Notes under the pieces: generated by a model | Seen by the model: only the letters and a program-made list of their open reading frames with translations | Databases searched by the model: none | What the model was told of the DNA's origin: nothing | Shown: piece after piece, positions 3,266 to 53,481 of the stretch | Position numbering within the stretch: position 1 is the stretch's first letter | Layout: each line of letters opens with the position of its first letter | Origin: Nocardioides sp. YIM 152315 | GTDB taxonomy: Bacteria; Actinomycetota; Actinomycetes; Propionibacteriales; Nocardioidaceae | Direction of reading: 5' to 3' | Assembly (NCBI RefSeq): GCF_029210375.1 | Contig: NZ_JARGER010000018.1 | Location: 124,001 to 188,000, forward strand | DNA length: 64,000 nucleotides | Translations under genes and position numbers: made by a program

Positions 3266-4761
3266 GCCCGCTCCAGGCGGTAGAGGAACTGGTAGCCGAA
3301 CATGGTCGGCCAGACGCGGGTGGCGAGCCGGTCGATCGCCGCGACCCTGCGGACCACGCGAACCAGCAGGTTGTCCTGACCGGTGCGGTCGAGCACGTCG
3401 ACCGGGGATCCGACGACGCGGCGCTCGACGATGCGCATCCCGGAGCGTCGTACGAGGCGCTCGAAGCTGGCTCGGGTGAAGAAGCGCACGTGCCCGTTGT
3501 CGAGCAAGCCACGTTGGTCGTAGTCGAAGCGCCCGATCGCCACCCGGGTGCGGGGGTACCAGTGGGCGAAGTTGGGCACCGACACGATGACCTCACCGTC
3601 CTCCACCAGGCGGTCGGCTAGGTCGGCGAGGAGCGACTGTGGGTCGATGACGTGCTCGAGCACGTCGCCGGCGACGATCGTGCGGTAGTCGCGGCCGACC
3701 TCGGCGGGGAGCCCCTGGTTCAGGTCTGCCTCCACGAAGCGGTCCATCCGCTCTGACACGCCCATGTGCTTAACGAGGTCGACACCGGTGACCCGGTGTC
3801 CGAGCCGGCCGATCAGGGCGGCGAACTGGCCGTCGGAGCAGCCGACGTCGAGGACGCCGGTGGGCGGCACCTGGCCGAGCCAGTCGAGCATGACGCCGTG
3901 CGACGAGTGCTCCGACGGCTTCAGCTCATAGGCACGCTCGTCGCGACCCGCTTCGATCGGCGTCCCGAACCCGAGGCCGCGGAGACGATACTTCAGGACG
4001 TCGAGCGTGACGTCCTTTGCGTACTTCATTCCGTTCACGTAGCAGATCTCGTCGCCGTAGTAGGTGGGGATCGGCACCTCGGCGATCCGCTTTCCCTGGG
4101 CGTGCAGCCCGAGGATGATCTCGGTGTCGAAGTCGAAGCCGTCGGAGTACGACGCGAGATCGAGGTCGACGAGCGCGTCGACCCGGTAGGCACGGTAGCC
4201 GCTGTGCCACTCGGTCAGGTCGAGGCCCACCAGCCTGTTCTGGACGCCGGTGAGGATCCTGTTGCCGACGTACTTGTAGAGCGGCATGCCTCCCGCGCGG
4301 GCGCCGCCCGGCACCATCATCCGCGATCCGAACACGGCGTCCGCATCTCCCGCCGCGAGCGGGGCCACCAGATCCTCGATGTGCTCGGGGGCATACTGGC
4401 CGTCGCCGTGCAGGAGCACCACGACGTCCAGTTCCTGCTCGATCGCCCAGCCGTAGCCGTGCTTCTGATTGCCGCCATAGCCGAGGTTCTGCTCGTGCCG
4501 CACGATCGTGAGTGGGAGAGTGGAGCCGCTCTGGAACCGAAGGCCCACCTCGTAGGTCTCGTCGGAGCTGGCGTCGTCGCAGACCAGGACGTGATCGACC
4601 TTGCGTGCAAATCTGGCGGGCATGCGGGCGAGGGTTTGCACGAGCGTGCCGGCGGCGTTGTAGGCGACCACGAGGACCCCGACGCGGGGGCTGCCGGGCA
4701 CCGGGTCCTGCCGGACCTCGATCGCCTGTCGGCGGTGTTCGTCCAGGTGGTGCGTGGACAT
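3262..4761 (-). CDS. Bifunctional GT2 glycosyltransferase / SAM-dependent methyltransferase
   Basis: A 499-residue two-domain protein. Residues about 27-250 form a GT2 GT-A domain: VGVLVVAYN start, VCDDASSDET, and LHGDGQYAPEHIEDL, which resembles polyprenyl-phosphate mannosyl/glucosyl synthases. From about residue 300 a class I methyltransferase follows with motif I VLDVGCSDGQFA and a later GDVLEHV. The fusion suggests that a lipid-linked sugar is made and a methyl group added in one pathway. It is first in the minus-strand operon, and the next gene overlaps its stop by four bases. A strong purine-rich ribosome site (gagggagaggg) lies directly before the ATG. Confidence 0.9.
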   Translation of the reverse strand: MSTHHLDEHRRQAIEVRQDPVPGSPRVGVLVVAYNAAGTLVQTLARMPARFARKVDHVLVCDDASSDETYEVGLRFQSGSTLPLTIVRHEQNLGYGGNQKHGYGWAIEQELDVVVLLHGDGQYAPEHIEDLVAPLAAGDADAVFGSRMMVPGGARAGGMPLYKYVGNRILTGVQNRLVGLDLTEWHSGYRAYRVDALVDLDLASYSDGFDFDTEIILGLHAQGKRIAEVPIPTYYGDEICYVNGMKYAKDVTLDVLKYRLRGLGFGTPIEAGRDERAYELKPSEHSSHGVMLDWLGQVPPTGVLDVGCSDGQFAALIGRLGHRVTGVDLVKHMGVSERMDRFVEADLNQGLPAEVGRDYRTIVAGDVLEHVIDPQSLLADLADRLVEDGEVIVSVPNFAHWYPRTRVAIGRFDYDQRGLLDNGHVRFFTRASFERLVRRSGMRIVERRVVGSPVDVLDRTGQDNLLVRVVRRVAAIDRLATRVWPTMFGYQFLYRLERA

Positions 4762-41757: not shown

Positions 41758-43512
41758 TCAGCCGGCCGACCGCAGCAGGTCGCCGGTCGAGATCGCCCGG
41801 GTCGGCGCGCTGCGGAAGAGCACCAGCGCGAGCGCGCCCGCGACCACGGCACAGATCGCCGCGCCGGTGAAGACCGTCTGCTCCTGCGCGATGCCGGCGA
41901 GCTTGAGCAGCCGGGTGAACTCCGCGCAGCGGCTGCCTCCGTCGCACACGTCGCGGACCGACGGCACGTCCGCCTGCTCGGCGTAGTAGCGACGCAGCCC
42001 GATCGTGGTGAGCGCGGAGATGCCCACGAGCATCCCGACCATCCGCGAGACCACGACGAAGGCGCTCGCCAGCCCGTGCACCTCGTGGTCGGTGCTCGCC
42101 AGCACGGCCGCGTTGACGGGCGCGAGCGCGAGCCCGAAACCGAGCCCGGCGAGCACGAGAGGCAGCGTCGCGACCGGGCTCTCCAGGGACTCCAGGTCCC
42201 AGGTCGCCATCCAGAGGAAGCCCGCCGCCGCCAGCGCCATGCCGGCGGCCGTCACGACGCCGGCGGGCAGCCGGTGGGTGAGGTAGCCGCCGAGCACCGC
42301 GCCGACCGGCAGCGCCACCAGGAAGCGGACCAGCACGAGTGCCGCCATCAGCTGCGAGCCGGGGTAGACCGTGGTGCGTGCGAAGAGCGGGATGTCGATC
42401 AGTGCCGCGATCAGGGCCGCGCCGACGAAGAAGCTGACGAGCATCGCGCCCCAGGCGGGGGTACGCCGCATCGCGCCGGCCGGCACGAGCGGGCGCTCGA
42501 CGCGGCGCACGTGCACGACGAAGCCGACCGCGGCGAGCGCGGACGCGAGGAGGTACCAGACGCCCTGGTCGGAGAAGACCTGCACCTTCGGGTCGGCGGT
42601 CGCGAAGGCCAGCACGATCCCGGCCAGGGCCATCGCGAGCAGCAGGGCGCCGAGCGCGTCGGCCTCGCGCACGGTGGCGATCCACCCGCGGATGTCGAGC
42701 AGGGGCCGCCGCGCGGTGCAGCAGCGCACGACGAGCAGCACGAGCGCGACGATCGCGACGGTGCCGAGCGGGGTGAGCCAGCGGCCGTCGCCGGCGTACG
42801 GGATGAACAGCTGCCCGTAGGTGAGGTCGCGCATGAGCTGGCTGGGCTGGACGAAGACGAGCGCCCCGGCGACCAGCGTGACCAGGGCGAGGGCGAGGCC
42901 GATCCAGTCGAACCGCACGGTGGCTGAGGAAGGCGCGCCAGCGCCTGTCTCGAAACCACCCAATCGCCTGACGGCGACGGCGAGGGCGAGGCCGACGACC
43001 AGGTTGATCAGGAAGATCACCCGCCAGTCGGCGACGGCCAGCACCAGGGCGCCGAAGAGCGGGCCGAGGACGCTGCCGATCTCCTGCACGGCCGAGACCA
43101 GCCCGAGGGGTACGCCGCGGCGCTCGGCGGGGTAGAGGTCGGCGACCAGCGCGAGGGTGGCGGGCACCAGGCCGCCGCCGCCGACGCCCTGGAGGAAGCG
43201 GCCGGTCACCATCGTCGGCATGTCGTAGGCCAGCGTGGTGAGCAGCGAGCCGAGCGCGAAGACGACCAGGGCCGCGACCAGCACCGGCACCCGCCCCCGG
43301 AGGTCGGCGACGTGGCCGATCAGCGGCAGCATCGCGACGTACCCGAGCAGGAAGCCGGAGACGATCGGCGCCGCCCGCTGCAGCTGCTCGACCGGGATGC
43401 CGGCGCTGGCCATCATGTCCGGCAGGGCCAGCACGACCACGTAGGTGTCGGCGGCGGCGAACGCCACCGCGATCGCGGCCAGGCCCAGCAGGACCCGCGG
43501 CGACCTGGTCAC
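41758..43512 (-). CDS. MFS transporter (DHA2-like drug/metabolite exporter)
   Basis: A 584-residue polytopic protein with about 14 helices. MFS landmarks are GHVADLRGRVPVLV (motif A, loop 2-3) and GRFLQGVGGGGLVPATLALV (motif C-like). It starts at GTG overlapping the stop of the upstream lipoprotein gene by four bases, so the two form a coupled pair. In the loop after the sixth helix (residues about 184-199) lies GGFETGAGAPSSATV, encoded by a 42-bp palindromic repeat that is also present at 52414. Substrate unknown. Proton-driven export is inferred from family. Confidence 0.9.
   Translation of the reverse strand: MTRSPRVLLGLAAIAVAFAAADTYVVVLALPDMMASAGIPVEQLQRAAPIVSGFLLGYVAMLPLIGHVADLRGRVPVLVAALVVFALGSLLTTLAYDMPTMVTGRFLQGVGGGGLVPATLALVADLYPAERRGVPLGLVSAVQEIGSVLGPLFGALVLAVADWRVIFLINLVVGLALAVAVRRLGGFETGAGAPSSATVRFDWIGLALALVTLVAGALVFVQPSQLMRDLTYGQLFIPYAGDGRWLTPLGTVAIVALVLLVVRCCTARRPLLDIRGWIATVREADALGALLLAMALAGIVLAFATADPKVQVFSDQGVWYLLASALAAVGFVVHVRRVERPLVPAGAMRRTPAWGAMLVSFFVGAALIAALIDIPLFARTTVYPGSQLMAALVLVRFLVALPVGAVLGGYLTHRLPAGVVTAAGMALAAAGFLWMATWDLESLESPVATLPLVLAGLGFGLALAPVNAAVLASTDHEVHGLASAFVVVSRMVGMLVGISALTTIGLRRYYAEQADVPSVRDVCDGGSRCAEFTRLLKLAGIAQEQTVFTGAAICAVVAGALALVLFRSAPTRAISTGDLLRSAG
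42919..42960. repeat. 42-bp palindromic dispersed repeat, coding copy
   Basis: Arms GGTGG/CCACC at the ends and AGGCGC-GCCA-GCGCCT at the centre, with CTGAG and CTCGAA between. It matches the copy at 52414-52455 at 40 of 42 positions. Here it lies in frame in the MFS gene on the minus strand, encoding GGFETGAGAPSSAT within a cytoplasmic loop. Confidence 0.85.
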
Positions 43513-52296: not shown

Positions 52297-52413
52297 AGGT
52301 CACGGGGCGTTGGTGTCGGGAACCGGCGGCACGCCGGGCTTGCGCGCCGACAGGCAGCAACGACGGGGACGCGGACCTTGGGGTTCAGGTCCGCTGCCGG
52401 CTTGCGGGCTCAC

Positions 52414-52455
52414 GGTGGTTGAGGAAGGCGCGCTAGCGCCTGTCTCGAAACCACC
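52414..52455. repeat. 42-bp palindromic dispersed repeat, intergenic copy
   Basis: Arms GGTGG/CCACC and centre AGGCGC-GCTA-GCGCCT. It matches the coding copy at 42919-42960 except at two positions. It lies 118 bp after the stop of the 86-aa gene and 85 bp before the truncated HNH gene. Confidence 0.85.
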
Positions 52456-52539: not shown

Positions 52540-53481
52540 GTGGACGCCGAGCTCTGCGCCCCCGACCACGACGACGTCTACCCGTTCGAGGGGTGGGGCG
52601 ACCGACGCCTGGCCGCGCAGGCCCAGCGGCTGGTCGCCACCATCGACGCCGCCGCGGTGGTCAACCGCCGCGCCCGGGCCGAGGGCGACCGCCACGTCAC
52701 CCTCCGTCCCGCCCCGGACACCATGGCCCGGCTCTCGGTGCTGCTGCCCGCCGCCCAGGGCGTCGCGGTCTACGCCACCCTGACCCGGGCCGCCGATCAG
52801 GCCCGTGCCGCCGCAGACCCCCGCTCCCGCGGCCAGGTGATGGCCGACACCCTCCTCGCCCGCGTCGCCGGCCAGACCACCGCCGAGCCGGTCCCGGTCC
52901 CGGTCCCGGTCGCGGTCGCGGTCAACCTCATCGTCTCCGACCAGACCCTCCTCGCCGGCGGCCACGAGCCCGCCTGGCTCCACGGCTACGGACCCATCCC
53001 CGCAGAGGCCGCCCGCGACCTCACCGCCCGCGCCGTGGCCGAGGCCACCGCGACCCTGCGCCGCCTCTATGCCCGCCCCGACACCGGGACACTGGTCGCG
53101 ATGGACTCCCACGCGCGGGCGTTCCCGAAGAACCTGGCCCTGTTCCTCGACCTGCGCGACCGCACCTGTCGCAACCCCTGGTGCGACGCCCCCATCCGCC
53201 ACCACGACCACATCGAGGACCACGCGACAGGTGGACCCACGTCCGCGGCCAACGGCCAGGGCCTCTGCGAGCAGTGCAACCACCTCAAGCAGGCCCCCGG
53301 CTGGCGATCCCGCCCCACCACCGGTCCACCCGGCCAGCCTCACGTCGTCGAAACCCGGCTCCCGACCGGACACGTGATCAGGGCCACCGCACCACGCGCG
53401 CCCGCCCCCGCCCGGGCCGTGCCCCTCAGCCACGGAGAGCTCTACCTCGTCGACTTCATCCTCGACTACACCGCCGCCTGA
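52540..53481 (+). pseudogene. DUF222/HNH endonuclease, 5'-truncated
   Basis: The readable protein has 313 residues from GTG, whereas full members are commonly 400-500. It begins in the middle of the DUF222 region (VDAELCAPDHDDVYPFEGWG) and in-frame reading upstream ends at a stop at 52486, so the first 150 or so residues are missing. The HNH domain is intact: CRNPWCDAPIRHHDHIEDHA and LCEQCNHLKQAPGW hold the zinc cysteines and catalytic histidine. A VPVPVPVPVAVAV run from 6-bp repeats lies near residue 117. It may be inactive, or a short active form. Confidence 0.75.

Follow-up and report, generated by a model that had tools for sequence, protein, structure and literature searches.

How does a palindrome come to lie in frame inside a transporter gene, and does it belong to that gene alone or to something larger? 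The question is raised by a 42-bp element in an MFS transporter gene of Nocardioides sp. YIM 152315, situated in a window of 64,000 nucleotides (the whole stretch of DNA that was analyzed). The features of the window on which the following analysis builds are these:

41758..43512, minus strand: MFS transporter gene; the loop that joins helix 163-185 to helix 203-220 contains the element
42918, plus strand: C directly 5' of the element; genome-wide, 107 of 109 clean flanks have a C at this position
42919..42960, plus strand: palindromic element of class A (AGGCGC-N4-GCGCCT centre), antisense to the MFS gene, in frame, encoding GGFETGAGAPSSAT
52414..52455, plus strand: second class A copy, intergenic, with a C before it at 52413
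52540..53481, plus strand: DUF222 gene that follows the second copy at a distance of about 85 bp, with a PF02720 match at G000:C10:176594-177160

The 42-mer reads GGTGGCTGAGGAAGGCGCGCCAGCGCCTGTCTCGAAACCACC and lies exactly at 42919-42960, where a preliminary description had placed it. Read on the minus strand, it encodes GGFETGAGAPSSAT as residues 185-198 of the MFS protein. The earlier assignment to residues of about 184-199 was right with regard to the frame, but the last V counted as part of the insert is the first codon past the element. The gene product resembles DHA2 exporters, with a score under the cut-off of the DHA2 model. A position between two helices, also part of the preliminary description, is borne out by the best of five AlphaFold2 models (alignment input of 22 orthologues), in which helices 163-185 and 203-220 flank the element. 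The mean pLDDT of this model was 83.7, with 81.7, 73.6, 53.2, and 50.4 for the remaining four. Residues 187-198 stayed below a pLDDT of 50 in the best model, and the inserted peptide is predicted to be disordered.

The closest named orthologue of the MFS protein is found in Nocardioides soli (L031, 90% identity), and its gene has the same insert. The dN/dS between both genes was 0.177 over 584 codons (0.19 upstream and 0.165 downstream of the insert), and since the insert is common to both, purifying selection therefore persisted while it was carried. Within the element itself, the two genes differ by one synonymous and two other changes, a very small number. The intergenic copy at 52414 is indeed near-identical to the one in the gene, as had been reported, with two mismatches, C/T at 42924 and 42939 in the numbering of the window. 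As DNA, this class A copy folds better than 200 of 200 shuffles on one strand and 199 of 200 on the other.

The source genome (G000) is a 4.82 Mb draft in 50 contigs with a completeness of 99.83%. Allowing at most 3 mismatches, the 42-mer was found at 55 places in this genome, while the backwards pattern was found at 0. The two-arm pattern GGTGGTYGAG-N10-30-TCGAAACCACC occurred at 66 places, again with 0 in the backwards control. A covariance model, R1, gave 133 matches at E <= 0.1, of which 125 reached E <= 0.001. With these counts against zero in the backwards controls, the element is not a product of chance, and with 133 matches it is not just a pair of copies left by a duplication. The finding is real and far wider than one gene. 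As the R1 search scored 150 of 14000 first-look candidates, 133 is probably a lower bound; a few of these matches are partial or overlap one another. Copies or clusters of the element also stand at the ends of several draft contigs (e.g., C38:11, C25:52, C31:21, C11:31, and C42:34), so the copy number may be underestimated for this reason as well.

The family is built on constant outer arms around a central hairpin that varies by class, namely AGGCGC/GCGCCT in class A, GGTTGC/GCAACC in class B, and GGGAC/GTCCC in class C. Covariation was evaluated with 20 hand-picked class representatives, of which 17 kinds came from the source genome and 3 from relatives. These sequences showed 27 double-change cells compared to a shuffled mean of 7.8, and a covariation score of 0.235 compared to 0.080, with 0 of 500 shuffles scoring as high. 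The number of pairs changed on both sides was 6, which 38 of 500 shuffles reached. No Rfam match was obtained for seven element loci.

Neighboring copies in the source genome are arranged at defined distances. All 15 minus-plus neighbors are spaced 5-14 nt apart. Of the 11 plus-minus neighbors, two overlap as nested or compound copies and the other 9 have 17-19 nt between them; a further 11 neighbors share the same orientation. Four of the nine plus-minus spacers start with GAGACC. In a relative, G063, the plus-minus spacer was exactly 48 nt long in 11 of the 16 pairs counted, four of which belong to a single tandem array; the count covers 62 of 215 pattern places, up to position 1651459, with two isolated places left out. 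Compound copies, in which a short B-type core devoid of outer arms sits inside an A-type element, were observed at G000:C19:56039-56120 (82 nt), C43:38927, and C5:73076, and a further nested copy at C10:68258.

Gene contexts and flanks were determined for 122 of the 133 matches in 80 regions (the 11 matches in C42, the start of C43, C48, and C49 were left out), and the gene calls rest on a codon-usage model for which the window served as training sequence. A called gene spans 21 of the 122 matches, compared to a fraction of 0.821 for random 42-mers from the same regions. The other 101 are located between unidirectional (58), convergent (17), or divergent genes (9) or at the end of a region or contig (17), and 13 of them overlap a gene end. 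With 21 copies in frame, the proposal that the element can be tolerated as a peptide insertion is strengthened. That the frame is open in all 21 is a consequence of the method, as gene calling would not extend through a copy that disrupts its gene. L122 and L133 have a negative coding score to one side of the copy, close to the start or end of the gene.

The carriers include several enzymes of core metabolism, with short gene names resting on Pfam and PDB matches (19 carriers in Pfam, plus the MFS gene). Among them are the dihydroorotase PyrC, the small chain of carbamoyl-phosphate synthase CarA with the element in its C-terminal tail, a biotin carboxylase, CobN, a Mg-chelatase/VWA protein, a SpoU methylase, a class II tRNA synthetase, two dehydrogenase E2 subunits with elements in linkers, a restriction subunit (EcoEI_R_C), and MiaB, named by its best PDB match. 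FbiC, a fused CofG/CofH-type protein, carries an in-frame inverted dimer of two elements. The solved homologues of PyrC (3mpg) and CobN (7c6o) are each approximately 10 residues shorter at the insert. For CarA and MiaB the structure alignments stop just short of the insert, and for biotin carboxylase the alignment continues across the insert region with low similarity. Two carriers show additional peculiarities. At L099 (771-2738), an Amino_oxidase and a DUF1365 domain share one frame, and the element that separates them may have fused two genes. At L097 (1322-2542), VVEEGAGTPSP repeats precede the intact copy in the E2 linker, as if elements had accumulated.

The reading frames used by these copies are unequal. 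Twelve of 21 are read in the GGFETG frame and six in the VVEEG frame; one uses the third frame and two are degenerate. The third frame is open in every class, yet only 1 of 19 copies uses it (P = 0.005 under equal use). Copies share descent and are not fully independent, so that frame and flank statistics are inflated, but the bias suggests, in an indirect way, selection on the peptide and hence that in-gene copies are translated.

With regards to the relatives, the same loops were compared in three sets of genes. The MFS set comprised 23 Actinomycetota orthologues (L031-L053, with the distant hits L054 and L055 left out), of which four have an R1 element in the linker at E <= 0.01 (L031, L032, L036, and L037). 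The element of L031 is of class A and in the orientation of the window, while those of L032 and L037 are of another class and that of L036 is of class B, in the opposite orientation and another frame. By eye, half an element was seen in L033, decayed copies in L039 and L042, and an unrelated palindrome in L038; no element was recognized in the remaining 15, some of which have a shorter linker. Alignment of the orthologues, which had been suggested as a check on whether relatives lack the peptide, leaves only N. soli out of 23 with the same one, as the rest have other classes, an unrelated palindrome, or nothing recognized. In the MFS tree, the window gene and L031 form a supported pair (100/99), and L032 and L033 stand beside that pair with different linkers (fork of four, 88/82). 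The palindrome of L038, GTTGACCCGCCCGAAA..TTTCGGGC at 3550-3582 in the MFS linker, recurs elsewhere in another Nocardioides (L144, 4915-4947) and may be a further repeat family.

For PyrC and CarA, the source genome was compared with 19 relatives from the upper part of the PyrC list (142 of 147 genomes match). These were hand-picked, short contigs being avoided and G319 and G354 being taken out of rank for a longer PyrC, and the resulting counts are examples, not rates. The PyrC loop holds an element in the source genome and another one in G156 (R1 match L141:3055); by eye, other elements were seen in G335, G319, and G354, and none was recognized in 15. In the CarA tail, elements were found in the source genome (dimer), G156, and G416 (dimer); G388 and G369 have elements recognized by eye, and CarA of G403 is cut short. 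The four genomes nearest by PyrC match (G388, G326, G303, and G305) have no element of the source class in either gene. The source genome also has two genes of 1869 and 480 codons between pyrC and carA (L136, 4519-11723), for which no tblastn match at E <= 1e-20 was obtained in the corresponding regions of the 19 relatives.

The FbiC set comprised 30 loci, one from the source genome and the 29 best from others; of 98 genomes searched, 73 had matches. All nine model hits at E <= 0.1, from 8 genomes, fall inside the CofG-CofH linker, while weaker hits outside of it (L213, E 0.21; L203, E 0.45; L192:4073, E 0.78) look like chance. By eye, an unrelated TAGTCCC..GGGACTA palindrome was seen in the linker of L193, L196, and L198, and a third kind in L195. 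In the former three, TAGTCCC(A/T)GACG and its inverted copy stand in frame and represent a second, unrelated palindromic family, of which a single arm was also observed in the source genome (L076, 549-560). The calls made by eye, that is L033, L039, L042, and L038 for MFS, G335, G319, and G354 for PyrC, G388 and G369 for CarA, and the unrelated palindromes in FbiC, are weaker than the model matches. Folding energy, compared with that of other segments of the gene, could not tell filled linkers from empty ones in this GC-rich DNA; several empty linkers were as good or better, and the linker of the window itself reached a z of -0.33. As folding energy does not discriminate, occupation was judged by model matches and by eye. 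The loops are filled differently among species, so the landing places are shared and the elements are not.

Instead of repeated insertion, this pattern could also result from one ancient insertion per gene, e.g., into the MFS linker of a common ancestor, that was later inverted or overwritten by gene conversion from other copies. L032 and L033, which stand beside the window gene and likewise have an element or half element in the linker, fit such a course, and the near-palindromic nature of the arms would permit inversion in place. However, frame and position vary among lineages, unrelated palindromes are found in these linkers too (L038 for MFS; L193, L195, L196, and L198 for FbiC), and the nearest four genomes by PyrC are devoid of source-class elements in PyrC and CarA. 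We therefore regard an ancient insertion as unlikely, although it is the best of the alternatives, and favor repeated insertion of a mobile element. From the dispersed near-identical copies and the lineage-specific insertions in PyrC and CarA, we infer that the element moves, and the earlier suggestion of a mobile or spreading palindrome gains support from the 133 dispersed matches and the same insertions.

The flanks of the copies give hints on how this movement may proceed. In the source genome, position -1 holds C in 107 of 109 clean flanks (background 0.39), position -2 holds A or T in 67 of 109 (background 0.28), and position +1 holds G in 62 of 103. A C at -1 was also found in 19 of 20 distinct full copies starting with GGTGG in relatives. 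No target duplication with k = 2-10 rose above shuffles in 102 copies. Regarding the enzyme, the Y1 transposase model PF01797 matched in 0 of 41 genomes, the source and copy-rich ones among them, and the RAYT model NF047646 in 0 of 18, with positive controls matched in both searches. A transposase gene lost in a contig gap is conceivable in one draft, but hardly in all. RAYT cleaves between C and T, and between C and C for a GTGG variant of the Marinomonas tetranucleotide (PMC8266576). Taken together, the hairpin, the inverted pairs with fixed spacers, the upstream C, and the missing duplication mean that the anatomy works like REP/REPIN single-strand mobility; membership in RAYT-REPIN systems is not claimed because the known enzyme is absent from the search results.

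The 42-mer is likely one copy of a REP/REPIN-like non-autonomous element that spread in Nocardioides and whose in-gene copies are kept at tolerant sites as peptide. The element would spread through Nocardioides genomes and land in or near genes, and copies inside genes would survive where length and frame keep the protein open. Tolerated sites would be a permissive loop, an inter-domain linker, or a C-terminal tail, where the peptide joins the protein; such peptides would be translated and roughly neutral. The strict C, the missing duplication, and the dimers are consistent with movement as single-stranded hairpin DNA joined after C, and the enzyme would act in trans and be something other than a recognizable Y1/RAYT transposase.

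A MITE of the DDE type with decayed or very short target duplications would share with this element the short inverted-repeat ends, the high copy number, and the lack of an enzyme of its own. Many of the 102 copies are near-identical and so probably recent, and still no duplication of 2-10 bp stood out from shuffles. An offset scan (run without a shuffle control) found at most 5 copies sharing a 4-mer, and the strict C on one side likewise speaks against a MITE, which we consider improbable.

How far the REP/REPIN-like element reaches was assessed with a loose superfamily pattern, GGTYGAG-N10-36-TCGARACC, in a scan of 296 genomes of the class. It occurred at 20-619 places in the 14 other Nocardioides of the sample, where the backwards control gave 0-2, and was strong in some other genera (e.g., G204, 410; G237, 235; G026, 145; G178, 136). 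Low counts mean little because many other genomes have up to about 25 places, with up to 7 in the control. As possible carriers, phages gave no element match and viral contigs no match with the two-arm pattern; a Thioclava plasmid gave one match of 31 bases at 93.5% identity, which may be chance. A broader reading is held here tentatively: permissive loops and inter-domain linkers in ordinary Nocardioides enzymes may be repeatedly rewritten by several unrelated palindromic families, with a widespread actinobacterial superfamily being spread by a non-Y1 single-strand integrase that would join the hairpin after C and leave no duplication.

The same distribution also bears on a selected host element, e.g., a terminator, an mRNA stabilizer, or a nucleoid site, in place of a selfish repeat. 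The covarying hairpin and the 101 of 122 matches outside called genes, with 58 between unidirectional and 17 between convergent genes, would suit such a function. However, in-frame copies in core genes at sites that differ among species do not, and neither do 20-619 pattern places among 14 other Nocardioides, which leaves a host function quite improbable.

The neighborhood of the second copy suggested a mobilizer as well. The product of the gene at 52540-53481, whose PF02720 match spans profile positions 118-306 only, is presumably 13E12-like. In the source genome, 4 of 6 DUF222 matches are preceded by an element at a distance of about 140-260 bp (52540-53481 in the window, G000:C38:355843, C19:13648, and C31:369266); the fifth (C38:138231) is preceded by copies at 1.7 kb, and the sixth (C29:66755) has none among the matches listed. 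Such proximity is what DUF222/HNH (13E12) genes spreading the adjoining element would produce. This candidate was dropped, as gene number does not track copy number: pattern places and DUF222 matches amount to 410 and 1 in G204, 41 and 0 in G117, and 4 and 20 in G118, and a full element stands within 1.5 kb at just 4 of 30 DUF222 loci of relatives. The 41 places in G117 point against DUF222 being necessary, and a role in spreading the element is very improbable. Just as far-fetched is an insert bypassed or removed after transcription, leaving a protein devoid of the peptide, as coding-DNA palindromes are bypassed in Magnusiomyces yeast mitochondria (PMC6649704), since 18 of 21 in-gene copies use two frames with the third open in every class, which suggests that the frame matters.

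With the REP/REPIN-like reading retained, the family can be set beside known systems, as these are described in the publications cited. Rickettsia palindromic elements (RPE) are likewise palindromic repeats in frame in conserved genes and also intergenic (PMC2229807, PMC6649704), and 21 of 122 matches show this in-frame insertion in conserved genes for the Nocardioides element. RPE are described as being 105-146 bp long and Rickettsia-specific (PMC2229807), with RPE-4 and RPE-6 counted among short CGTC REPs (PMC3733652). In contrast, the element described here is mostly 39-42 bp long, its hairpins are exchangeable, the base upstream is strictly C, and its hosts are free-living Actinomycetota. 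With REPs of the GTAG/CGTC families it has in common the size class, hairpin, high copy number, dimers, and some copies in ORFs (PMC3733652), and as a short dispersed palindrome it is mostly extragenic (133 matches; 101 of 122 outside called genes). Unlike REPs, it has no unpaired GTAG/CGTC tag; the folded ends are paired, and a single C is strictly conserved outside. An internal GTAG was observed in some copies of other genomes. The main text of PMC3733652 makes no mention of Nocardioides or Actinobacteria.

REPINs share the inverted pairs with a defined spacer and the genome-wide populations, and RAYT cuts after C (PMC8266576); for the Nocardioides element, 9 of 11 pairs in the source genome are spaced 17-19 nt and 11 of the 16 counted in G063 exactly 48 nt. 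The difference lies in the cognate RAYT/Y1 enzyme (PF01797, 0 of 41; NF047646, 0 of 18), and from MITEs the element is set apart by the absence of target-site duplications (102 copies, k = 2-10). The family is best seen as an actinobacterial, RAYT-less counterpart of the coding palindromes of Rickettsia.

A prior description of this palindrome family in Nocardioides was not found among the literature matches listed, in a search with subscription journals outside its scope. The papers listed for the element strings each contained one short string and treated unrelated subjects; RAYT combined with Actinobacteria and palindromic gave no match, and REP combined with Nocardioides gave one unrelated paper. 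Coding palindromes have been described chiefly for Rickettsia and, in the form of intragenic REPs, for some other bacteria; here they lie in core biosynthetic enzymes of a free-living actinobacterium. The copy-rich genomes that gave no Y1/RAYT match in our searches raise the question of what moves these elements. As different families occupy orthologous loops, the origin of a loop from mobile DNA can be traced across the genus. If loops are indeed rewritten by mobile hairpins, free-living bacteria would have in them a permanent supply of new protein sequence.
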